The position numbers and the translations under genes are program-made. Shown piece by piece: positions 33,462 through 49,209 of a stretch of DNA of 64,000 bases. The DNA is from Desulfarculaceae bacterium (lineage in GTDB: Bacteria; Desulfobacterota; Desulfarculia; Desulfarculales; Desulfarculaceae). The stretch spans positions 310,001 through 374,000 of the forward strand of contig JAHLKT010000004.1 of NCBI GenBank assembly GCA_020444545.1, given 5' to 3'. Under the pieces are notes generated by a model. The model had not been told where the DNA came from. It made no database searches and saw only the letters and a list, made by a program, of their open reading frames with translations. Each line of letters opens with the position of its first letter. Within the stretch, counting starts at the first letter, position 1.

Positions 33462-35828
33462 CTACTTGTTGAACAATCCCTTGATAAGCCCCTCCACCGC
33501 CTTCTCGGCCCCCGGAGCCGCGCCCAGGTCGAGCTGAGGCACCGGATGCTCCACCGTGCCACCCAGCTTGATGGGGAAGGTTCCGTCCGGGGCCAGGAAC
33601 TGCCGGAGGGTGTGGCCCACGGTACTGGCGTCGAACTTGAGGGTGGCGTCCAGGGCGTGGTCCAGCAGGTTGGTCTTGCCCAGGATCTGGGCGTCCATCT
33701 CGTCGTCGCCCGCCTTGAGGGCCACGTCGTAGTTCACCACCCCGCCGCCGATCTTGTACTTGGCCTCGAACTTGCCGAAACGCCGAGGCAGCTGGCCCAG
33801 GGCGCCTTGCCACAGGGAGGCCAGGCCGGCCACCTCGTCCAGGAAGGCCAGCTCAATGGTCACCCCGTCGCGGGCCACCAGGCTGCCGTCGCCTTTAAGC
33901 GAGCGGGCCAAGGCCTCGGAGGTGAGCCCCTCGCCCTTCATGGCCGTATCCAGGAAGAACACCCCGCTCAGGCCCGACAGAGGCAGGGCGAACAGGGGCA
34001 GATCCTGCTTGAGCTTGCGGAACACCTTGGGAGTGACCTGGAGCCCCTCGCCCTTGAGTTCCAGGATGCTGATCGGCGAGGCAGGGTTGAAATCCACCCC
34101 GGCCTTCATCTTGAGCCCGCCGTTCAGGAAGATGGCATGGGGCAGCTCCATCTCCACCTTGGCGTCCTTGATCCTGGCCTTGAGCTCCAGGTTCTTGAGC
34201 TCGTAGCCTGCCGCCTTGATCAGGCCCAGCTTGACCTCGGCCTCGGCGTCCACGCCCTGGAGGTCGCGGCGTATTTGGGCCGGGTCCGGAGCGGCCTTGC
34301 CCCCGCCCGAGCCCATGCCGCCGGCGGCCTTGCCTCCGCTGGAGCCCGCGCCGGGCGAAGCCTTGGCCGTGCGGTGGGGAGCGGCCTCGCCCTTGGCCCG
34401 GGGCGCGCCCATGGGCAGGCGCTCCAGGTCAAGATAGTCGCCCACCACCATGAGGCGCAGGATGGCCTGGTCGCCCTTGGCTTCCGCCTTGCCGGTGATG
34501 CCCAGCTTGGCAAAGGCGGTGTCCAGATCGAACTGCTTTATCTCCAGCTCCTTGGGGTCGTCCTTGATCAGGAAGCGGTACGCCGCGCGCATGTGGGCGT
34601 CCTTGAAGGGCGCGGGCATGGGCGGGCAGTAGATGTAGATGTCTTTGCCCTGGTTCTCGCCGCTTATCTCCAGCACCCCCGGCCCGGCTCCCTTGAAGCG
34701 CACCCGCTTGCTGGCCAGGCCCGAGGCCTTGACGGTCCAGGGCATCAGCGGCGAGACCAGCGAGGCCAGCTTGGCCAGGTCCACCCGTTGCTCGAACAAG
34801 GCGTCGCTCTTGCCCAGGGACTTACCCCAGCCGATGACCCCCTTCAGGCTCTGGGCGAAGCCGCCCTCGGGCGCGTTGAACTGGGCCTGCTTGATGTCGG
34901 CCAGTTCGCCGGGCAGGTCCAGGCTCATATCGGCCATGAACACTGCCCCGGGCAGGCTGAAGTAGCGCCTGCCCATGGCCGTGGTCTGGAGGCGCAGGTC
35001 CTTGGCCTGGCCCTGGGCCTGCACCGCCAGGGCCTTGGCCGGGCCGCTGGCCTTGCCGGTCATCTCGATGATGCCCCGCGCCTTGAGCCCGGGATAGAGC
35101 GGAGCCAGGCGCGCGGCCAGGGCGGCCAGGTCCAGCTTGAGGGCCAGGTCGCCCTGCTTGAGCACGAAGCTGTCGCCGTAGCCTTCGCTCTTGGCCGAGG
35201 ATTGCACGCTAAGGCCGGGCATGGCCAGGGCAAGCTGTCCGCTGGCCCCGCCGAGGCCCAGGTCGCTGGACAGGCTGAGCTGCTCCAGAGGCAACTCGCT
35301 GGACATGCCGTTGGCCAGGTTCTTCAGATAAAGCTTGGAGCCCACGACCTGGAGCGAGCTGATCACCAGATGGCCGTCGTCGTCCTTTTCGTGGCGGCGC
35401 TCACGGTCACGGTCGCGTCCGTGCTCATCCTTCTTGCCCTTGGGCAGGTCTCGCCAGTTGAGGCGGCCGTCCTTGCCCCGCACCATGGAAAGCTCCAGGC
35501 TCTTGACCTCCACCTGGCGCACCACCAGGCTGCGGGCCAACAGGGGCATGAGGTCCGCCTCCACGGTGAGGGAGTCCAGCTTGACCAGGGGCCGCGAGCC
35601 ATAGGCCGCCTTGTCCGCCACCACCAGGCCTTTGACCTGGGCCTTGAGCCCGCCCCACAGGCTGACCGAAACCTCCTGCACCGTGGCCTTGCGGCCCAGG
35701 CTGTCCTCCAGGGCCCCGGTGAGCATGGAGCCCCAGGGCATGAACATGGGGACAAAGGTTATGGCCAGCACCACCAGCAGGACCAGGGCGGCCACGATGA
35801 TGCCGAGGATCTTGAAGAGCTTGCCCAT
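33462..35828 (-). CDS. AsmA family protein
   Basis: A 788-residue AsmA-like protein anchored in the inner membrane by a helix at residues 7-29 with the rest in the periplasm. The N-terminal AsmA block (SLGRKATVQEVSVSLWGGLK, then LVKLDSLTVEADL) and the C-terminal repeating-beta block (ATLKFDASTVGHTLRQFL) are visible. The family forms elongated bridges for phospholipid or outer-membrane biogenesis. Two low-complexity inserts stand out: a charged Lys/Asp/Arg-rich run near residues 125-152 and a Gly/Ser/Ala-rich run near 485-510, probably flexible linkers. The gene is alone, divergent from the ccsA-like operon. Confidence 0.85.
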   Translation of the reverse strand: MGKLFKILGIIVAALVLLVVLAITFVPMFMPWGSMLTGALEDSLGRKATVQEVSVSLWGGLKAQVKGLVVADKAAYGSRPLVKLDSLTVEADLMPLLARSLVVRQVEVKSLELSMVRGKDGRLNWRDLPKGKKDEHGRDRDRERRHEKDDDGHLVISSLQVVGSKLYLKNLANGMSSELPLEQLSLSSDLGLGGASGQLALAMPGLSVQSSAKSEGYGDSFVLKQGDLALKLDLAALAARLAPLYPGLKARGIIEMTGKASGPAKALAVQAQGQAKDLRLQTTAMGRRYFSLPGAVFMADMSLDLPGELADIKQAQFNAPEGGFAQSLKGVIGWGKSLGKSDALFEQRVDLAKLASLVSPLMPWTVKASGLASKRVRFKGAGPGVLEISGENQGKDIYIYCPPMPAPFKDAHMRAAYRFLIKDDPKELEIKQFDLDTAFAKLGITGKAEAKGDQAILRLMVVGDYLDLERLPMGAPRAKGEAAPHRTAKASPGAGSSGGKAAGGMGSGGGKAAPDPAQIRRDLQGVDAEAEVKLGLIKAAGYELKNLELKARIKDAKVEMELPHAIFLNGGLKMKAGVDFNPASPISILELKGEGLQVTPKVFRKLKQDLPLFALPLSGLSGVFFLDTAMKGEGLTSEALARSLKGDGSLVARDGVTIELAFLDEVAGLASLWQGALGQLPRRFGKFEAKYKIGGGVVNYDVALKAGDDEMDAQILGKTNLLDHALDATLKFDASTVGHTLRQFLAPDGTFPIKLGGTVEHPVPQLDLGAAPGAEKAVEGLIKGLFNK

Positions 35829-36098
35829 GAAAACAGCCTTTCGCGTTAAAACCGGTTCAGCGCCCCCCCGGGCGGAAGATATGCCGTGCTTATCTAGAAA
35901 TTATGAAAGCAAGCGCCGGGCGAGTAAAGGTGGGGGCCGCAAAAGGGGTGCGAAGATTTTTCTTGCCTATCGTTATTTTTTAATTAATATATCGCAAGAC
36001 AAGGCCCGCGCGGGCGGACACCTCCCGGCGCGGGGTTTTTTAGAGCATCGTTATCTTTTGCATACTATAGCGAAACCAGCCGGAGGCCCCGGGACAAC
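35829..36098. promoter_or_regulatory. Divergent regulatory gap between asmA-like and ccsA-like genes
   Basis: This AT-richer gap holds a promoter-like site P1 (TTGCCT at 35963-35968, TAATAT at 35985-35990), an intrinsic terminator (36005-36041) and a second promoter-like site P2 (TACTAT at 36063-36068). P1 and P2 share the sequence ATCGTTATnTTTT, 78 bases apart. Confidence 0.5.
36005..36041 (+). terminator. Intrinsic terminator inside the ccsA-like leader region
   Basis: CCCGCGC and GCGCGGG form a stem around a 16-base loop, followed by G and six T. It faces the plus strand but no plus-strand gene precedes it, so it may end a tiny RNA from P1 or attenuate the ccsA-like operon. Confidence 0.7.
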
Positions 36099-36167
36099 AT
36101 GACCCAAGCACACCACCTAATCACGCCCGGGGCCTACTCCGGCTCCCGGTCTGGGGCCCGGCCATGA
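36099..36167 (+). CDS. Possible 22-residue leader peptide upstream of the ccsA-like gene
   Basis: ATG at 36099, with GGAGG 12 bases before, opens a 22-codon frame starting MTQAHHLITPG. Its TGA overlaps the ATG of the ccsA-like gene (ATGA). The ccsA-like ATG has no good ribosome site of its own, so coupling through this leader is plausible. Confidence 0.4.
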   Translation: MTQAHHLITPGAYSGSRSGARP

Positions 36168-36910
36168 GCGCCCTGCTCCCCTGGCTCTACTACACCTCCC
36201 TGGCCGCCTGCATGGCAGCGGCCCTGCTGGCCTGGCGCGGGCCGCAATGGGCCTGGCGCGCGGCGGGCTGGGGTCTCGCCGCCCTGTCCCTGGCCCAGAT
36301 CGCGGCGCTCGGCCTAGTCCTGAACCGCCCGCCTCTGGCCGGGGCCTATGAGACCGCGGCCCTGCTGCTTTTGTGGCTCTGCGCATTGGCCCTTTTGCCC
36401 TGCGGCGGCCCGGAGGCCCGGCGGCGCCTGTGCCTGTGGACCTGGGGCGGCGCCACGGTGGTGCTGGCCGTGGCCCTGCTGGCCGGACTGCGCCTCTACC
36501 CGGACTGGTACATGTACGAGCACCTCTGGTCGCGCCTGTTCTTCAGCTTCCGGGTGGCGGGCCTGGCCGTGTTCCTGCACGCCGCCATGGCCGCCCTGGC
36601 CTCCCTGGGGGCCGAGCCCAGCGACCGCACCAGCCTCCTGCGCTGGTCGCGGAACTTTCTGTTGGTGGGCACGGCGGTCTTCCTGGCCGGAGAGTTCAGC
36701 GGCTTCACCTGGCGGCTCTTGTGGCTGGGCGACTACTGGTGCTGGAACGCCAATTTCCTGGAAGCCACCATGTTCTTCCTGCTGGTAACCGGAGCGGCCC
36801 ACCTGCCCCCCGCCTGGGCCGCCCGGCCCCGCCTGCGGGCCACGGCCCAGGCACTGCCCGGCCTGGTCAGCGTGGCCTTGTTCATGACCCACATGCTCAT
36901 GGAATCCTGA
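36164..36910 (+). CDS. CcsA-like membrane protein (cytochrome c biogenesis/haem-handling type)
   Basis: A 248-residue integral membrane protein with about seven to eight helices. Its layout resembles CcsA/CcmC-type haem-handling proteins, but the tryptophan-rich motif (WGxxWxWD in the family) is present only in the diverged form LGDYWCWNANFLEA near residue 190. Histidines at about 126, 144, 212 and 245 lie in or next to helices and could ligate haem. It is translationally coupled to a ResB-like gene (its TGA overlaps the ATG) and followed by a TonB-dependent receptor. No cytochrome or thioredoxin-type maturation genes are present. Classical cytochrome c maturation is therefore doubtful; haem or metal traffic with the receptor is an alternative. 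Confidence 0.7.
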   Translation: MSALLPWLYYTSLAACMAAALLAWRGPQWAWRAAGWGLAALSLAQIAALGLVLNRPPLAGAYETAALLLLWLCALALLPCGGPEARRRLCLWTWGGATVVLAVALLAGLRLYPDWYMYEHLWSRLFFSFRVAGLAVFLHAAMAALASLGAEPSDRTSLLRWSRNFLLVGTAVFLAGEFSGFTWRLLWLGDYWCWNANFLEATMFFLLVTGAAHLPPAWAARPRLRATAQALPGLVSVALFMTHMLMES

Positions 36911-37725
36911 TGCAGCGTTTATCCTCACTCAAGTTCACCATGTACACCCTGTCCGGCCTCATCATCCTATTGGGCGTGGGCGTCATCCTGGGCCAACCCA
37001 AGCTCCTGGCCGCCTCCTTCGTGGACATGAACCGGATGCTCATCCGGGACTGGCTCCTGGGCCCGGCCTGGGAGCATCCCTCGGCCCCGCTGTGGTTCCT
37101 GGCCCTGTGCCTGGGCGTGGGGCTGATGCTGTTGAACCTGGGGGCCTGCACCATCACCCGCCTGTGGCCCCGCCTGCGCTCGGGCAACGCGCTCAAGGGA
37201 TGGCTGCTCACCCTGGTGCATCTGGTGATGCTGGTGGTGCTGTTGGGCCACGGGGCCGAGATGGTCTTGGGCCACAAGCAGGAGGGTCTGAGCCTGGTGC
37301 CCGGCCAGGCGGCCGCCCTGCCCGGCGGCCTTCGCCTGGAGCTGGAGGACATGGCCTTTGTGGGCGACCGCTCAGCCCTTAACCTGCCCTATCGCAAGGC
37401 CCGCTGGGTGTGGACCCGGGAGGGCTTTCAGCGCGAGCACAACTGGGCCCGCCTGCGCCTGAGCCGCGAGGGCCGCGAGCTGTGGCGCGGCGAGCTGCGC
37501 ATCCTGGAGCCGGTGGAGCTGGAGGGCCTGCGCATCACTCTCACCGATTTCCACGCCCCCACGGGCAAGGGCGCGCCGCCGGTGGGCATCCAACTGGCCG
37601 TGGTGCACAACCCCTTCACCACCCTTTTCTTCGTCGCCTATGGGCTGTGGATTTTCCTCTACGCGGCTCTGGCGGCGGTCACCTGGCGAAGCGGGCCCGC
37701 CAACGGGGCCGCCAAAAACAGTTAA
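36910..37725 (+). CDS. ResB-like (CcsB-like) membrane protein
   Basis: A 271-residue protein with about four transmembrane helices and a periplasmic domain before the last one, as in short ResB/CcsB proteins. The first helices (SLKFTMYTLSGLIILLGVGV) and LTLVHLVMLVVLLGHGAEMV are typical. The periplasmic part includes GLRITLTDFHAPTGKG. Start ATG 36910 overlaps the stop of the ccsA-like gene, so the two are made together. ResB with CcsA forms the system II cytochrome c synthase, but this pair is small and diverged. It precedes the TonB-dependent receptor gene by 52 bases, suggesting a single operon. Confidence 0.8.
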   Translation: MQRLSSLKFTMYTLSGLIILLGVGVILGQPKLLAASFVDMNRMLIRDWLLGPAWEHPSAPLWFLALCLGVGLMLLNLGACTITRLWPRLRSGNALKGWLLTLVHLVMLVVLLGHGAEMVLGHKQEGLSLVPGQAAALPGGLRLELEDMAFVGDRSALNLPYRKARWVWTREGFQREHNWARLRLSREGRELWRGELRILEPVELEGLRITLTDFHAPTGKGAPPVGIQLAVVHNPFTTLFFVAYGLWIFLYAALAAVTWRSGPANGAAKNS

Positions 37726-37777
37726 CCTAGACAACAGGGCAAGGCGGGGGCCGCTTTGCCGGCGAGGTAGGCGCAAA

Positions 37778-39868
37778 ATGAAATTCAAACAAATTACTTG
37801 GGGAATGGCCTTGGCCCTTTGTCTGTGGGCCGCGCCGGCCATGGCCGAGGCTCCGGAGCAGATGGCCAAGGCCCCGGCGGGCAAGGACTACCAAGTCTAT
37901 CAGCTGGGCGAGGTGGTGGTGGCCGGCCAGGGCGACGAGGTCAACCAGACCACCGACGTTTACTCCATCACCGCCGAGGACATCAGCGACAGCCATGCCC
38001 TCACCGTTCCCCAGGCCCTGTCCTATGCCCCGGGCGTGGTGGTGAGCTATGGCCGCAAGAACGAGCCCAGCGTGAGCATTCGCGGCTTCAACCAGCACGA
38101 GGCCCTGATCCTCATCGACGGCGTGCCCTACTATGAGACCAACTACGGCAAGCTGAACCTCAACCAGCTTCCCACAAGCATGGTGGCGCGCATCGACATC
38201 ATCAAGGGCGCGGCCTCGGTGCTCTACGGCCCCAACGCCATGGCCGGCGTGATCAACATCATCACCAAGAAGCAGGGCCTCAAACCCTCCCTGGACGCCC
38301 TGGCCGAGATCGGCGAGGACGGCGCCTACCACCTGAACGCCTCCCACGGCAACAGCCTGGGCAAGTTCAAGTACTGGATCAACGTGGACCAGCGCGAGGC
38401 CGACGGCTGGTATCTCTCCGACGACTACAGCCCCAGCCTGGGCAGCACCATCAAGAAGCCAGGCGGCACCACCAGGGAGGTGATCCAGGGCGAGGGCGAG
38501 CGGCTCAACTCCGGCTTCAACCAGACCAGCGTATGGGGCAAGATGGGCCTGGAGCTGGCCAAGGATTCCGCCTACTACCTGAGCGGCTATTACATCGATT
38601 CCAACTGGGGCATGCCGCCCTCCACCATCTCCAACATGGTCTACCCCAGCCGCCCCGCCTTTTCGCAGTACGGCACCATGAGCAAGTACGAGGACTGGGG
38701 CCTGGACCTGAGCGGCGAGCAGGGCATCGCCAAGAACTTCGCCCTGCGCGGCAAGCTTTTCTATCACAACCACATGGACGACTACACCAGCTACGCGGAC
38801 AAGAACTACGGCGAGGTGATCGCGGTAAGCCGCTACAAGGACTACGTGGCCGGCGGCGCCCTGTTCGGCGATTGGGAGATCGTGCCCCAGGACACCCTGC
38901 GCTTCTCCCTGCACTACCGGGGCGACAGCCACAAGCAGCGCGACGATTCCTATCTGCCCTTTGCCGAGAGCTTCTCCTACACCGGCTCGGCGGGCCTGCA
39001 GAACGACTGGAAGCCCTGGGACAACTTCGCGATCATCGCGGGCATCAGCTACGACTGGTTCAACGTGACCAAGGCCGAGAGCGTGGAGACCGACAAGAGC
39101 GGCAACTACACCGGCACCGACGACCTGGAAACCCCCGGCACCAGCGACAGCTTCAACCCCATGCTGGGGGCCACCTACACCTTCGGGGACCAGACCAGGC
39201 TCTTCGGCTCGGTGGCCCGAAAGACCCGCTTTCCCACCCTGCAACAGCTCTTCGGCTCTCGCAGCGGCAATATCGAGCTGGACCCGGAGCACAGCACCAA
39301 CTTCACCCTGGGAGTGTCCCGCCCCTTTGGCAAGATCTTCTACGGCGAGGCCTCGGTGTTCTACAACGACATCGACGACCGCATCTCCCGCGACGGCCCC
39401 TATCCGGACTCCATGTATCACAACTACAGCAAGGTCCGCATGTACGGCTTTGAGCTCATCGGCGAGCTGAACCCCTGGGAGAGCCTGATGATCAAGGTGG
39501 GCTACACCTTCCTGAAGGCCAAGGACGAAAGCGACGACCGGGTGACTGACGACGTGGTGAACGCGCCCGAGAACAAGCTGGACATCAAGGTGCAGTACAC
39601 CATCCCCAAGCTGCTCACCCGGCTGGACTTCATCGGGGTCTACATCGGCTCGCAGTACAGCCAGCTGCCCACTCCCTCCAGCCCGGACACCGCGGTGCTG
39701 GACAACAGCGGCTACTTCCTGGCCAACTTCAAGCTCAGCCAGCCTCTCTGGGACAACTTCGAGGTGTTCGGCTACGTGAGCAACCTCCTGGACAAGGACT
39801 ACGAGAGCGATAGCGGCTTCCCGGGCGAGGGGCGGGCCTTCTGGGCCGGCATAAGGACGCGCTTCTAA
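37778..39868 (+). CDS. TonB-dependent outer-membrane receptor
   Basis: A 696-residue receptor. A signal peptide occupies residues 1-22 (ends AMA). A TonB-box-like YQLGEVVVAG follows, then the plug domain (about 45-165; SVSIRGFNQHEALILIDGVP, GAASVLYGPNAMAGVINII) and a 22-strand barrel ending in the expected C-terminal Phe (GIRTRF). It imports a scarce ligand such as a siderophore, haem, cobalamin or metal chelate; the sequence does not decide which. I chose ATG 37778 with GAGGT upstream; an upstream extension lacks a signal peptide. Its operon with CcsA-like and ResB-like proteins hints at haem or metal. A perfect terminator follows. Confidence 0.93.
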   Translation: MKFKQITWGMALALCLWAAPAMAEAPEQMAKAPAGKDYQVYQLGEVVVAGQGDEVNQTTDVYSITAEDISDSHALTVPQALSYAPGVVVSYGRKNEPSVSIRGFNQHEALILIDGVPYYETNYGKLNLNQLPTSMVARIDIIKGAASVLYGPNAMAGVINIITKKQGLKPSLDALAEIGEDGAYHLNASHGNSLGKFKYWINVDQREADGWYLSDDYSPSLGSTIKKPGGTTREVIQGEGERLNSGFNQTSVWGKMGLELAKDSAYYLSGYYIDSNWGMPPSTISNMVYPSRPAFSQYGTMSKYEDWGLDLSGEQGIAKNFALRGKLFYHNHMDDYTSYADKNYGEVIAVSRYKDYVAGGALFGDWEIVPQDTLRFSLHYRGDSHKQRDDSYLPFAESFSYTGSAGLQNDWKPWDNFAIIAGISYDWFNVTKAESVETDKSGNYTGTDDLETPGTSDSFNPMLGATYTFGDQTRLFGSVARKTRFPTLQQLFGSRSGNIELDPEHSTNFTLGVSRPFGKIFYGEASVFYNDIDDRISRDGPYPDSMYHNYSKVRMYGFELIGELNPWESLMIKVGYTFLKAKDESDDRVTDDVVNAPENKLDIKVQYTIPKLLTRLDFIGVYIGSQYSQLPTPSSPDTAVLDNSGYFLANFKLSQPLWDNFEVFGYVSNLLDKDYESDSGFPGEGRAFWAGIRTRF

Positions 39869-39893: not shown

Positions 39894-39919
39894 AAGAGCC
39901 GCCCTCCGGGGCGGCTCTT
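39894..39919 (+). terminator. Terminator after the TonB receptor operon
   Basis: AAGAGCCGCCC and GGGCGGCTCTT form a perfect 11-base-pair stem with a TCCG loop, 25 bases after the stop. A short GCTATT follows. Confidence 0.8.
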
Positions 39920-42155: not shown

Positions 42156-44417
42156 ATGGCCGACATCGCCTCCAAGGCCATGCCGCCCAACCAGCCTGAC
42201 GCCCAAAGCCGCCTCTGGGCCACCCTTGTGCGCTTTGTGCTGCTCTTCATCCCCGTGGCCGCCTTCCTCACCATAACTGTCTATATCTTCTATCAAATCG
42301 AGGCCAACAACGAGCGGCGCCTGCTCATGAGCGAGCAGCACAACCAGGTGCAGCTGGAGCGGGAGACCCTGGCCACCATCCTGGAGGATGTGGTAACCGA
42401 CACCCTGGTGCAGGCCCAGCACCATCTGCTCCGGGACTGGCCCACCCCCCCCACCCTCACCGCCCTGCGCCGCCTGAGCGAAGAGTTCATGGGCTTCGCC
42501 GAAACCACCCGCATGTACGGGCGCATCAGTTTCATCGACACCAAGGGCACCGAGCTGGTGCGGGTGGACTACCGGGGCGGCCGGGCCCACCTGACCCCCG
42601 AGAGCCTGGCGGTGGATTTGGCCGACCGCCCCTGGGTCCAGCGCGCCTTGGCCTTGCAGCCGGGCCAGGTCTACATCTCCCCCCTGGTCCTCAACAGCTC
42701 GTCGGCCCTGGAGCCGATCATCCGGGTGGCCGCGCCGGTGTTCAGCCAGCTGGGCGTGCGCCTGGGCCTGGTGGTAATGGACTACAAGGCCGCGCGCGCC
42801 CTGAAGAAGCTGGCCGGCCTGCGCCCCGAGCGGGGCATGAGCATGCTCCTGGGCCAGGAGGGCCGGCGCTTGATGATCGCCGACGCCACCAACCGGGAGA
42901 GCCAGAACAAGGAGCGCGGCTTTGCCGAGACCTGGCCCCAGGCCTGGCAGCGGCTCTCCAGCGAGGAGCAAGGGCAGTTCTTCGAAAAGGCCGGCCTGTT
43001 CACCTGGGCCACGGTGCGCCCGCCCGTGGAGGGCTCGGGCCATCCTTGGTGGAAAATCGTCTCCCTGGTGCCAGAGGCCCAGGTGGACGCGGCGGTGGGC
43101 ATCTACCTGATGCAGCTCACCCAGCTGCTCACCGTGGTTCTGTTCGTGGCGGGCATCATCTGCTGGTTCCTGGCCTGGGCCCAGGTGCGCCACCGCCAGG
43201 CCCAGCGGGCCCTGGCCCAGAGCGAGCAGCGCCTCCGGGACATCCTCACCTACTCCCCGGCGGTTATCTTTCTGAAGGACCTGGAGGGGCGCTACCTGCT
43301 AATCAACCGGCGCTACGAGGAGCTGTTCCACATCCCCCAGGCCGACGTGGTGGGCATGACCGACGCGGACCTGTTCCCCGCGCCCATCGCCCAGAAGTTC
43401 CGCGAGAACGACAAGGAGGTGCTGGCCAAGGGCCGCCCCCTGCACCGCGAGGAGCAAGCCCCCCAGGACGACGGCCTGCACACCTACCTCTCGGCCAAGT
43501 TCCCCCTGCGCGACCTCCGGGGGGTGAATTACGGCGTCTGCGGCATCAGCACGGACATCACCTCCCTGAAGCAGGCTCAGGCCCAGCTGAGCCAGGCCAA
43601 GGAAGAGGCCGAGGCGGTGAATCGGGAACTTTTGGAGAAGCAGGGTCGCCTGGACGAGGACCTGAAGGCGGCGGCCGGCATCCAGCGCACCCTGCTGCCC
43701 TACAACCTGCCCCGCTTCCCCCATCTGGAGCTGGCCTGGAAGTTCGCGCCCAGCGAGGTGATCGGCGGCGACCTGTTCCACGCCCAACCCCTGGGGCCGG
43801 ATCACTTGTGCCTGTACATGCTCGACGTGGCCGGCCACGGGGTGCCCGCCGCCCTGGTCACGGTTTCGGTGCACGAGACCCTGGACCCGGCCAGCGGACA
43901 CGTGATGCGCATGGACCAGGACGGCCGGGTGCGGGTGACCCCGCCCGGCGAGGTGCTGGCCATCCTGGACCGGGAGTACCCCCTGGAGCGCTTCGAGAAG
44001 AGCTTCTCCATCGTGTACATGCTCTTGGAGATGAACAGCGGCCGCCTGACCTACTCCAGCGCGGGCCACCCTCCGCCCATCCTGATGCGCGCCGGGGGCG
44101 GCCAGGAGCAGCTGGAGGCCGGGGGCACCCTCATCGGCCTGGACGGGGCGGTTCCCTTCGAGGAAGAGAGCCTGCAACTGGCCCCGGGCGACAAGCTCAT
44201 CTTCTACACCGACGGGGTGGTGGAGTACGGCGAGCCCGGCAAAGAGCTGTTCGGCATGGAGCGCTTCCTGCGCTATCTGGAGCGGCGCGCCGCCCGGCCG
44301 GTGTCGGCCCTGCTGGAAGGCATGTGGCAGGAGCTGTTGGCCTTCGGCCGGGGACGGCCCCCGGCCGACGACGTGAGCCTCATGGGTCTGGAGTACAAGG
44401 GACGGCGGGACTCATAG
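42156..44417 (+). CDS. Membrane sensor with extracytoplasmic domain, PAS and SpoIIE/RsbU-type PP2C phosphatase
   Basis: A 753-residue sensor phosphatase. Helices at about residues 22-45 and 312-335 frame a periplasmic sensor domain of the Cache kind. A PAS domain follows (about 360-470; DILTYSPAVIFLKDLEGRYLLINRRYEELF), then a coiled linker and the SpoIIE phosphatase domain (about 505-750; FAPSEVIGGDLF, LDVAGHGVPAALVT, IFYTDGVVEYG, DDVSLMGLEYKG) with its metal-binding aspartates. It probably dephosphorylates the divergently encoded STAS protein in response to an external cue. Start 42156 was preferred over ATG 42147 because GGGAG is correctly spaced only for the former. Confidence 0.92.
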   Translation: MADIASKAMPPNQPDAQSRLWATLVRFVLLFIPVAAFLTITVYIFYQIEANNERRLLMSEQHNQVQLERETLATILEDVVTDTLVQAQHHLLRDWPTPPTLTALRRLSEEFMGFAETTRMYGRISFIDTKGTELVRVDYRGGRAHLTPESLAVDLADRPWVQRALALQPGQVYISPLVLNSSSALEPIIRVAAPVFSQLGVRLGLVVMDYKAARALKKLAGLRPERGMSMLLGQEGRRLMIADATNRESQNKERGFAETWPQAWQRLSSEEQGQFFEKAGLFTWATVRPPVEGSGHPWWKIVSLVPEAQVDAAVGIYLMQLTQLLTVVLFVAGIICWFLAWAQVRHRQAQRALAQSEQRLRDILTYSPAVIFLKDLEGRYLLINRRYEELFHIPQADVVGMTDADLFPAPIAQKFRENDKEVLAKGRPLHREEQAPQDDGLHTYLSAKFPLRDLRGVNYGVCGISTDITSLKQAQAQLSQAKEEAEAVNRELLEKQGRLDEDLKAAAGIQRTLLPYNLPRFPHLELAWKFAPSEVIGGDLFHAQPLGPDHLCLYMLDVAGHGVPAALVTVSVHETLDPASGHVMRMDQDGRVRVTPPGEVLAILDREYPLERFEKSFSIVYMLLEMNSGRLTYSSAGHPPPILMRAGGGQEQLEAGGTLIGLDGAVPFEEESLQLAPGDKLIFYTDGVVEYGEPGKELFGMERFLRYLERRAARPVSALLEGMWQELLAFGRGRPPADDVSLMGLEYKGRRDS

Positions 44418-44846
44418 GTTGGACCGCGCCCATTGCACGATGCTCTCCGCGGGCAGGGCCCCGGAGGTGCGGGCTATCTCGCGGCCGCCCCGGAACATGA
44501 TCATAGTGGGGATGGAGGAGATGCCCAGGGAGGAGGCCAGGGCCTGCTCCTGCTCGGTGTTCACCTTAATGAGGCGCACCGCAGGGCCCAGCTTGGCGGC
44601 GGCCTGGGCAAAGGCCGGGGCCATCATCTTGCAGGGGCCGCACCAGGCGGCCCAGAAGTCCACCAGCAGAGGCAGGGACTCGGAGCTCATCATCTTTTGA
44701 AAGGTGGCGGTGTTCACCTCCACCGGATGGGCGGGCAACAGCTCGCCCTTGCAACGGCCGCACACCGGCCCCTGCGCCAGGCGCTCGGGGGGAACGCGGT
44801 TGGTGGCGGCGCAGGCGGGGCATACAACGTGAATGGCATCGGACAT
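44412..44846 (-). CDS. trxC: Thioredoxin 2-type protein (TrxC-like)
   Basis: A 144-residue thioredoxin with an N-terminal zinc ribbon: CPAC and, 19 residues on, CGRC, as in TrxC. The thioredoxin domain carries the redox motif WCGPC (in VDFWAAWCGPCKM) and cis-proline segment SSIPTMIMF. It reduces disulfides in the cytoplasm and the zinc ribbon modulates its redox response. ATG 44846 has AGGAGG seven bases before it. It overlaps the end of the convergent phosphatase gene by six bases. Confidence 0.94.
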   Translation of the reverse strand: MSDAIHVVCPACAATNRVPPERLAQGPVCGRCKGELLPAHPVEVNTATFQKMMSSESLPLLVDFWAAWCGPCKMMAPAFAQAAAKLGPAVRLIKVNTEQEQALASSLGISSIPTMIMFRGGREIARTSGALPAESIVQWARSNL

Positions 44847-44954
44847 GTCTTTTCCTCCTGGGTTCATGGGCCCGCCGGGGCAGCGGCGTCATATAAAATA
44901 ATAAGTCGCCTGAATGTGCTTTGCAGCCCCGCGTCCTGGGTTTAGGCTGAAAAA

Positions 44955-48069: not shown

Positions 48070-49209
48070 CTAAACCAAGCGGCGGGCGATGGTGATCTTC
48101 TCCGCCTCCTTGGCTCCCTCGTAAATCTCCAGAATCTTGGCGTGGCGATAGAAACGCTGGATATCGTACTCATCGATGTAGCCGTAGCCACCGTGCATCT
48201 GCAAGGCCTTGTCCGCCACCCACACCGCGGTCTCGCCGGCGTAGTACTTGGCCATGGCGTTGAGCTTGGGATCCAGCTTACCCTGGTCGATGAGCCAGGC
48301 CGCCTTGTAGCAGGCCAGGCGGGCCAGCTCGATGCGGGTGGCCATCTCGGCCAGCTGAAACTGGAGGCCCTGGTTCACGATGAGCGGCTTGCCGAAGGCG
48401 ATGCGCTCCTGGGTGTACTTGAGGGCCAAGTCCAACGCGCCCTGGGCCAGGCCCACGCCTTCGGCGGCCACGGCGGTGCGGGTCACGTCGAAGAAGTGCA
48501 TGAGCTGGTGGAAGCCGTGTCCGGCCTCGCCCACCAGGTTGGCCACCGGCACCCGCACCTGCTCGAAGCTCACCTCGGCGGTGTCGCTGGCCCGGATGCC
48601 CATCTTGCCGTGGATCTTGTTGGCGCTCACCCCCTCCCGGTCGGCCTCCACGATGATAGTGCTGTGGCGGGCGTAACGGCCGGCCTCCTCGGGCTCGGTG
48701 ATGGCGAAGACCAGGTAGTAGTCGCAGATGGTGCCGTTGGTGATGAACATCTTGTTGCCGGTGATCACGAACTCGTCGCCTTCGCGCACCGCCTTGGTGC
48801 GGGCGGCGGCCACGTCGGTGCCCGCGTCCGGTTCGCTGAAGGCCCCGGCGGCCACCATTTCGCCGGTGACCAGGGGCGGCAGGAACTTCTGCTTCTGCTC
48901 CTCGCTGCCGTAGAAGTGGATCAGCTGGGAGCCGAAGGAGCGGGCCTCGACGCACTGGCCCACGCCCAGGTCCACCCGGCACAGCTCCTCGGTGATCAGG
49001 GCCTGCTCCAAAAAGCCGTAGCCCGCGCCGCCGTATTCTTCGGGGATGGTGGGGCCCACCAGGCCCACCTCGGCCGCCTTGAGGCACACCTCGGTGGGGT
49101 ATTTCTCTTCGCGGTCGTACTCGGCGGCGATGGGCGCTATCTCTTGGCGGGCAAAGCGCCGCGCGGTTTCCTGGATCAGGCGTTGTTCCTCGCTAAGCTC
49201 GAAATCCAT
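48070..49209 (-). CDS. Acyl-CoA dehydrogenase
   Basis: A 379-residue FAD-dependent acyl-CoA dehydrogenase of normal length. The signature AGAFSEPDAGTDVAAARTKA binds FAD and substrate, QMHGGYGYIDEYDIQRFYRHA is the second signature, and the catalytic base is expected at Glu in ILEIYEGAKE. It introduces a 2,3 double bond into an acyl-CoA and passes electrons to electron-transfer flavoprotein. ATG 49209 has GAGAGG upstream. It is the last gene of the operon that imports (Liv), activates (acyl-CoA ligase) and then oxidises one carboxylate. Short- or branched-chain acyl-CoA is likely but not proven. Confidence 0.94.
   Translation of the reverse strand: MDFELSEEQRLIQETARRFARQEIAPIAAEYDREEKYPTEVCLKAAEVGLVGPTIPEEYGGAGYGFLEQALITEELCRVDLGVGQCVEARSFGSQLIHFYGSEEQKQKFLPPLVTGEMVAAGAFSEPDAGTDVAAARTKAVREGDEFVITGNKMFITNGTICDYYLVFAITEPEEAGRYARHSTIIVEADREGVSANKIHGKMGIRASDTAEVSFEQVRVPVANLVGEAGHGFHQLMHFFDVTRTAVAAEGVGLAQGALDLALKYTQERIAFGKPLIVNQGLQFQLAEMATRIELARLACYKAAWLIDQGKLDPKLNAMAKYYAGETAVWVADKALQMHGGYGYIDEYDIQRFYRHAKILEIYEGAKEAEKITIARRLV

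Follow-up and report, generated by a model that had tools for sequence, protein, structure and literature searches.

A three-gene operon of a Desulfarculaceae bacterium very probably encodes a molybdenum (Mo)- or tungsten (W)-responsive acquisition system of the outer membrane, rather than a system for cytochrome maturation or haem uptake, to judge from its predicted regulatory sites and from the gene neighbourhoods of its homologues. The operon lies in a stretch of 64,000 nucleotides (the window; positions 310,001 to 374,000 of the forward strand of contig JAHLKT010000004.1, GenBank assembly GCA_020444545.1) from a genome of 4.38 megabases (Mb) that we designated G000. It encodes a CcsA-like and a ResB-like membrane protein, followed by a TonB-dependent receptor. 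The first two form a cut-down System II module related to the cytochrome c synthase CcsBA. Since ModE sites and an outer-membrane receptor stand beside this pair, it probably helps in the uptake of Mo or W. The route by which these metals cross the outer membrane of Gram-negative anaerobes is poorly known, and the transporter ModABC accounts for the inner membrane only. The operon supplies a receptor, regulator sites, and an unexpected haem-protein partner; its regulation and context are what is new. Its features, with lengths in base pairs (bp) or amino acids (aa), are as follows:

35971..35994, + strand: ModE box 1, CGTTAT-N12-ATATCG, an exact core match starting 193 bp before the CcsA-like start

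36049..36072, + strand: ModE box 2, CGTTAT-N12-ATAGCG, an exact core match starting 115 bp before the CcsA-like start

36164..36910, + strand: CcsA-like membrane protein, 248 aa, with H213 as TM-His2 and the WWxD Asp replaced by Asn

36910..37725, + strand: ResB-like membrane protein, 271 aa, with H104 as TM-His1, a family-specific H114, and a short periplasmic domain

37778..39868, + strand: TonB-dependent outer-membrane receptor, 696 aa, best start 37778, with Pfam PF07715 and PF00593 over cut-off

The trio was present where an earlier note on this DNA, made from the sequence alone, had placed it, and the coordinates held. The TGA of the CcsA-like gene and the ATG of the ResB-like gene overlap as TGATG, with the final A of the stop codon common to both, and a gap of 52 bp separates the ResB-like stop from the receptor start. 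Both the plug (Pfam Plug, 2.1e-26) and the barrel (4.5e-37) domains of the receptor are present, and by reading of the sequence it carries a signal peptide. It reached no curated NCBIfam cut-off among the 25 of 33 matches listed.

We searched for the pair within the phylum, apart from a strict-motif scan of a contig collection and a viral scan. We detected the ResB-like protein in 24 of 63 class genomes (E ≤ 0.001), distant CobN-type homologues included. The CcsA-like protein was found in 11 of 60 relatives and, by profile, in at least 16 of 395 genomes of the phylum, a lower bound because at most seven candidates were scored per genome. The strict-motif scan returned nine loci, including ones from Desulfarculaceae, Desulfocarbo indianensis, and a Syntrophales metagenome-assembled genome, and the viral scan returned a single short match (47 residues). 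For comparison, we chose 23 loci (400,212 bp) by homology to the pair. Not counted among them were loci of the CobN/Btu type, receptor clusters that lack the pair (L151-L154), and second pairs, although these last entered the alignments. Neighbouring genes were annotated with profiles built from the loci and were named via Pfam and NCBIfam.

A regulatory signal was seen in the position of the ModE boxes. The published ModE consensus of Escherichia coli and Geobacter, as it stands in the available parts of two sources, is ATCGNTATATA-N6-TATATANCGAT (PMC545781; one form in PMC2700814). Using the core of this consensus, CGNTAT-N12-ATANCG, and calling a box perfect when it had no mismatch, we found 14 perfect boxes in the 23 loci. 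There were two each in the window locus (WIN), L049, L056, and L086, and one each in L050, L052, L053, L054, L111, and L117. Each of the 14, which are spread over these 10 loci, stands upstream of the CcsA-like gene at a distance of no more than 400 bp. The reversed pattern gave no match over the 23 loci, and dinucleotide shuffles of the upstream regions (500 rounds) gave a mean of 0.004. There was also no perfect box in 30 canonical ResB/CcsA loci (118,662 bp, with flanks of only 1.5 kilobases [kb]), nor in 10 CobN/Btu-type records, which represent 8 distinct places because L119 and L120 are larger versions of L063 and L060. The gene on the far side of the boxes varies by locus (an unrelated minus-strand gene, ModE, or, by reading, a mutase-like gene in L086), so that the CcsA-like gene is the constant neighbour of the boxes. 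Sites with a single mismatch were found 55 bp upstream in L112 and, as a third site in the window, at 49135. A sigma-70 scan gave no + strand promoter by the boxes. Together, the two boxes, which the earlier note had not mentioned, predict ModE control of the operon, with ModE presumably leaving them under Mo or W shortage.

The gene neighbourhoods point in the same direction. The receptor lies directly beside the pair in 14 of the 23 loci (WIN, L049, L055, L059, L086, L108-L112, and L115-L118), and the same TonB receptor profile is matched within the cluster in 19, which adds L050, L053, L054, L057, and L058. The receptor link drawn in the earlier note was thus recovered when the same trio was sought in other genomes, and the pattern it had set against its own proposal, with multihaem cytochromes beside the pair and no link to receptors, did not occur across the 23 loci. 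In five loci (L050, L052, L053, L054, and L056), the gene order is ModE, CcsA-like, ResB-like, ModA, and ModB, followed by ModC except in L056, where it was not found. L056 (also L087), with its ModE, ModAB, and two boxes, comes from the cultured relative Desulfocarbo indianensis SCBM. Two ModE genes were found in L112, as was a TupA-like gene (E 3.4e-74, below its cut-off). The ABC importer of L113 and L114 includes a ModA-type binding protein, which scored over cut-off in L113, and the genomes of these two loci (G240 and G380) contain a second cluster with a receptor, a WtpA-like gene, and a gene for the secreted protein MoxTP, described below. The WtpA-like gene of G380 was named by NCBIfam (E 1.5e-126, over cut-off). 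Altogether, ModE, Mod, or Tup neighbours occur in 8 of the 23 loci, and at least one of a box, ModE, or a Mo/W-type binding protein occurs in 13.

Several results weigh against assigning the operon to Mo or W. No perfect box was found in 13 of the 23 loci or in the receptor clusters L151, L153, and L154, in which MoxTP is present and the pair absent. G000 as a whole holds five perfect sites against three for the reversed pattern; this count is not striking, and the ModE argument therefore rests on position and conservation. L056, L113, and L114 have no receptor in the stretch examined. In a comparison of the 18 taxa having all three proteins, the receptor tree shared only 6 of 15 splits with the pair, a poorer agreement that may point to exchange of receptors. 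Finally, L057 and L115 have Fec/Btu-type importers in place of Mod-type ones. These importers, together with the CobN-type loci, which carry related pairs with BtuCD-like transporters, and with the receptor itself, which resembles siderophore and haem receptors below cut-off, would suit a system for haem or siderophore-iron uptake at which the ModE boxes are incidental or reflect cross-regulation. We consider such a system improbable, given where the perfect boxes stand (14 of 14 before the CcsA-like gene, ModE sites being the metal-regulator sites searched for) and how often Mo/W-related genes accompany the pair. The earlier note had proposed that the set moves haem or a metal complex rather than maturing cytochrome c. 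Its departure from maturation is probably right, as is a metal complex as cargo, but haem as cargo was not supported, since the ModE boxes, ModE, ModABC, and TupA point to Mo or W.

The kinship of the pair with CcsBA emerged from profiles and predicted structures. Single-sequence matches were faint, in keeping with the description of the proteins as diverged: in Pfam, the CcsA-like protein matched PF01578 at only E = 0.74 and the ResB-like protein matched nothing, and an NCBIfam scan of the pair gave nothing relevant. When family-only alignments were compared by hhalign with canonical sets from the same phylum (25 CcsA and 18 ResB open frames, some of the ResB frames cut or merged), the CcsA-like family matched canonical CcsA (prob 96.8, E 2.3e-10, 209 columns) and the ResB-like family matched canonical ResB (prob 89.9, E 1.7e-6, 41 columns, all in the periplasmic part). 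Ten unrelated comparisons gave 2% or less. The predicted model of the CcsA-like protein (pLDDT 91.5) aligned by VIA-align to residues 621-902 of CcsBA 7s9y with Z 20.7 and rmsd 3.0 over 244 of its 248 residues, followed by CcmF as next-best structure (Z 18.7). The CcsBA match of this model comes from VIA-align, as Foldseek gave no match for it at E ≤ 0.001. For the ResB-like model (pLDDT 81.3), the only Foldseek matches at E ≤ 0.001 were the two CcsBA entries (7s9y: E 1e-4, prob 1.00). Its alignment to CcsBA 7-344 (rmsd 4.4, 218 residues) is less compelling, because its Z of 11.5 falls below the value of about 13 advised for helical models and may reflect a common arrangement.

Residues W62, N76, and C80 of the ResB-like protein align with residues kept in 11 of 12, 12 of 12, and 12 of 12 canonical ResB rows, respectively. 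This direct alignment used 12 of the 18 canonical ResB rows, namely frames of 420-490 aa in which the NxxxC motif is present. Based on the profile comparison, the predicted structures, and these three residues, the pair amounts to a minimal CcsBA whose periplasmic part has been shortened, and the names CcsA-like and ResB-like are borne out. The ResB-like protein has 271 aa, compared with mostly 426-483 aa for canonical ResB open frames of the phylum. Searches of PDB sequences with family-only profiles retrieved no CcsA and no ResB; a PDB sequence match to CcsBA was set aside as biased, its profile having included one canonical CcsA and three CobN-type rows. The trees of the two proteins (18 taxa) have 13 of 15 splits in common, which indicates that they were inherited as a unit. 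Elsewhere in G000, contig C3 carries a canonical ResB-CcsA pair and contig C8 a further gene of the CcsA family, the latter by reading inside a haem-synthesis cluster, so that the pair in the window is an additional, diverged copy.

The haem ligands distinguish the pair from a working synthase. According to the available part of PMC6299221, CcsBA binds haem through two histidines in the membrane (TM-His) and two in the periplasm (P-His), the latter flanking the WWD domain; P-His1 is proposed to be swapped for the histidine of the CXXCH motif, and P-His1 and the Asp of WWxD are required in the cytochrome c synthase. The CcsA alignment contained 23 of the 25 canonical rows (260-300 aa). H213 of the CcsA-like protein, which no family row lacks (26 of 26), occupies the TM-His2 column, where the canonical rows likewise all have His (23 of 23). 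H104 of the ResB-like protein occupies that of TM-His1, which is invariant in canonical ResB (12 of 12 rows), and occurs in 24 of 25 family rows. Both assignments hold in all alignments reaching that far. P-His1, in contrast, is His in 23 of 23 canonical rows, and all three alignments place a gap opposite it in every family row (26 of 26). The earlier note had described the tryptophan-rich motif as altered, and so it is: W183, W192, and W194 are unchanged throughout the family (26 of 26 rows), but the WWxD Asp of 23 of 23 canonical CcsA rows is replaced by N, S, G, or T in 26 of 26. On these assignments, the membrane haem site is kept, while parts that a synthase needs to present haem are lost.

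H114 of the ResB-like protein, present in 24 of 25 family rows where 12 of 12 canonical rows have A, G, or S, is new in the family. It follows H104 by ten residues within one predicted helix, at a position that the expected topology puts closer to the periplasm. H243 of the CcsA-like protein is kept in 13 of 16 rows of the window lineage and is His in 1 of 10 rows of the L109-L118 lineage. The column of window residue 127 shows the alternative, with His in 10 of 10 rows of the L109-L118 lineage and Phe in 16 of 16 of the window lineage. As a conjecture, another haem could sit on the periplasmic side, held by H114 together with H243 (or the lineage-alternative His). The four helix-edge histidines that the earlier note had singled out are probably H104, H114, H213, and H243; the first three are conserved almost throughout the family, and the last is kept less strictly. 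Speaking for a remaining synthase-like feature, H243 aligned with P-His2 in one of three alignments, the family ending before P-His2 in the other two, and part of the external haem site may thus remain.

The earlier note had seen no cytochrome partner, which is correct for the operon in the window and incorrect in general, since 13 of the 23 related loci (counting that of G045, where the cluster is split) encode MoxTP, a protein that by reading has a signal peptide and is secreted. PF00174 was over cut-off in all four MoxTP proteins scanned, and long forms add a C-terminal PF00590. A single CXXCH occurs in 11 of the 13 and is absent in L054 and L116. The domain mix is odd, with PF00174, CXXCH, and, in long forms, a tetrapyrrole-methylase domain on the presumed exported side. 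Examples of MoxTP are the following genes:

L053:12651-14417: MoxTP, next to a TonB receptor

L109:1686-3464: MoxTP, next to a TonB receptor

L111:4392-6197: MoxTP, next to a TonB receptor

L112:5620-6633: MoxTP, next to a TonB receptor

L118:12910-13959: MoxTP, next to a TonB receptor

Given this frequency of MoxTP and its CXXCH motif, the pair could be imagined as a haem exporter or cytochrome c synthase dedicated to MoxTP. The possible identity of H243 with P-His2 would suit that role, and so would genome G048, a single case in which loss of CXXCH coincides with absence of the second pair seen in its relatives G047 and G050. Yet G048 keeps the first pair despite having lost the motif. Moreover, five pair-bearing genomes, namely G000, G049, G043, G055 (70% complete), and G269, gave matches only to the PF00590 part and none to the N-terminal part of MoxTP, and G046 has MoxTP (with CQACH) beside a receptor without the pair. 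MoxTP is therefore not needed by the pair. Because the pair has also lost P-His1 and the WWxD Asp, and because canonical ResB is present in 36 of 39 sampled genomes of the phylum, we regard a dedicated synthase or exporter as very unlikely. MoxTP could be an electron acceptor or a metal chaperone.

We hypothesized that the pair carries electrons through haem b. Under Mo or W shortage, ModE would leave the two boxes, a direction of regulation that we infer, and the trio would be made. The TonB receptor would then import a Mo- or W-containing complex into the periplasm. In the inner membrane, the CcsA-like and ResB-like proteins would form a complex with haem, presumably haem b, that could carry electrons outward to the imported complex. 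Reduction would release the metal, which ModABC, encoded elsewhere in the genome, might pick up. This scheme takes as its starting points features that were computed, namely the trio, the CcsBA kinship, the presence and conservation of ModE boxes, the neighbouring Mod and Tup genes, the membrane ligands that remain, and the loss of P-His1 and the WWxD Asp. With a membrane haem beside a TonB importer, electron transfer to the imported complex is the simplest use, as proposed for FoxB/HiuB. Counting against the scheme, porins would admit free molybdate, a small ion whose usual form does not have to be reduced, and a redox partner was looked for among neighbouring genes only. In our judgment, the whole explanation, a ModE-controlled operon for Mo/W uptake with the pair as haem-b electron carrier, is evenly balanced between right and wrong. 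For the job of the pair itself, freeing the metal from its complex in the periplasm as a haem-b carrier is a tentative assignment, plausible but somewhat short of probable.

A more specific version, which we offer as a speculative possibility, is that the synthase was stripped down to a two-haem transmembrane reductase, with an inner haem between H104 and H213 and an outer site that lacks P-His1 but has H114. Here, H114 and H243 (or the column-127 His in the other lineage) would fix the outer haem in place, and electrons would pass to the Mo or W complex from the dedicated TonB receptor, after which the metal would reach ModABC. Alternatively, the pair might be a haem-carrying module for TonB/ABC importers of several metal complexes, for example as an anchor or sensor, with no electron transfer at all. 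Related pairs do occur in Mod, Fec/Btu, and CobN contexts, which makes the module one that is not tied to one cargo. However, haem ligands inside the membrane that are as conserved as these (24 of 25 and 26 of 26 rows) would hardly be needed for a purely structural role, and we think this alternative unlikely. As to electron transfer, a function that extends to several metal complexes would agree with the related pairs of the CobN-type and Fec/Btu-type clusters.

Functional parallels are seen in FoxB and HiuB, PepSY siderophore reductases. In the available part of PMC13001220, these are receptor-linked inner-membrane reductases with two His-ligated haems and proposed electron transfer to a metal complex. 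Like the pair in the window, they are inner-membrane proteins encoded with a TonB receptor. Unlike them, neither protein of the pair has a PepSY match in Pfam (E ≤ 1), their models match CcsBA, and their haem binding is predicted only. As far as the same source goes, FoxB and HiuB are under iron regulation, unlike the operon in the window. CcsBA/ResBC of Helicobacter hepaticus (7s9y, 7s9z) has in common with the pair the fold of both halves, TM-His1, TM-His2, the Trp residues of the WWD region, and the counterparts of ResB-like W62, N76, and C80. The pair differs in that P-His1 and the WWxD Asp are gone, P-His2 is doubtful, H114 is new, ModE boxes are present, and a TonB receptor adjoins.

The operon shares its box core with the ModE regulon (ModABC, TupABC, and WtpABC), and ModE and ModABC surround the pair in relatives. 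There is also a likeness to the Tup and Wtp systems, as a TupA-like gene lies near one pair and WtpA accompanies MoxTP and a receptor at another place in G380. For Geobacter sulfurreducens, the predicted ModE regulon comprises "several transport systems", and the main text of that paper does not contain "TonB" (PMC2700814). Unlike what we found in the window, the reconstructions of ModE regulons of Geobacter and Desulfovibrio name no TonB receptor and no CcsA/ResB pair in the portions available (PMC545781, PMC2700814), and PMC5343134, as available in part, has no passage on ModE. Searches of the open-access literature, at the level of their listings, showed no ModE-controlled TonB receptor and no CcsA/ResB pair in Mo/W uptake.

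Two further systems resemble the trio in part. In the anaerobic haem systems of the HmuS/CobN type, CobN clusters from the same class carry a CcsA/ResB-like pair and a BtuF/FecCD-type importer, several with a TonB receptor. Unlike these, the operon in the window has no CobN gene, and no ModE box was found at the CobN-type clusters. CcsA and ResB are absent from the main text of the HmuS paper. The closest published observation that we found is the Bacteroides thetaiotaomicron locus BT2473-2482, which the available text of PMC10434189 describes as an iron-starvation locus with two CcsA proteins. It resembles the operon in the window in having CcsA-annotated proteins, which are induced under metal starvation and share the locus with a porin, and differs in its metal (iron, not Mo) and in its partners, a peptidase M75 and a thiol oxidoreductase (PMC10434189). 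As the operon in the window cautions, genes resembling the ResB and CcsA of cytochrome c biogenesis may serve metal uptake. If the reductase reading is true, metal uptake would include a reductase derived from System II, and Mo or W would have a TonB-dependent route under ModE control.

The ModE protein of G000 (L077:7482-7862) consists of 126 aa, the DNA-binding part only, and matched TIGR00637 with 2.4e-22 and 78.9 bits, below the cut-off of 98.5. This raises the question of where Mo is sensed, one also noted for Desulfovibrio in PMC545781. ModABC of G000 is encoded away from the trio with its own ModE box. Genome-wide, the five perfect sites of G000 are one before modA beside the ModE gene, two at the trio, one before regulator genes, and one at C4:285865. 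We took the last as a chance match, because it lies partly within one gene, at the 3' end, and the start of the next gene on the same strand is about 280 bp further on. The site before the regulator genes (L078:7838-7861) is a strong match that also precedes a gene for an XdhB-like FAD subunit (below cut-off), and these genes are likely another member of the ModE regulon.

Around the trio in the window, a minus-strand gene occupies 33462-35828 on one side, and a GAF-type gene (by reading) begins at 39918 on the other. A thioredoxin-like open reading frame (44412-44867, - strand; by reading, WCGPCK) lies about 4.5 kb downstream, with no sign of operon membership. Among the relatives, L060-L067 have CcsA/ResB-like pairs and BtuF/FecCD-type importers, mostly with a CobN-type chelatase and several with TonB receptors; these clusters are possibly a haem or corrin uptake version of the same module. 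In G045 (L051/L052), about 33 kb of inserted DNA interrupts the cluster. The split runs through the second pair (L051:4254-5012 and L052:7445-8239; G045:C1 1384313 and 1417444), with an integrase-like gene (by reading), and the ResB-like protein of this second pair has Asn where the membrane His is expected. In L117:6033-8861 (- strand), the ResB-like protein and the TonB receptor occupy one frame of 942 aa, which represents either a fusion or a missing stop.

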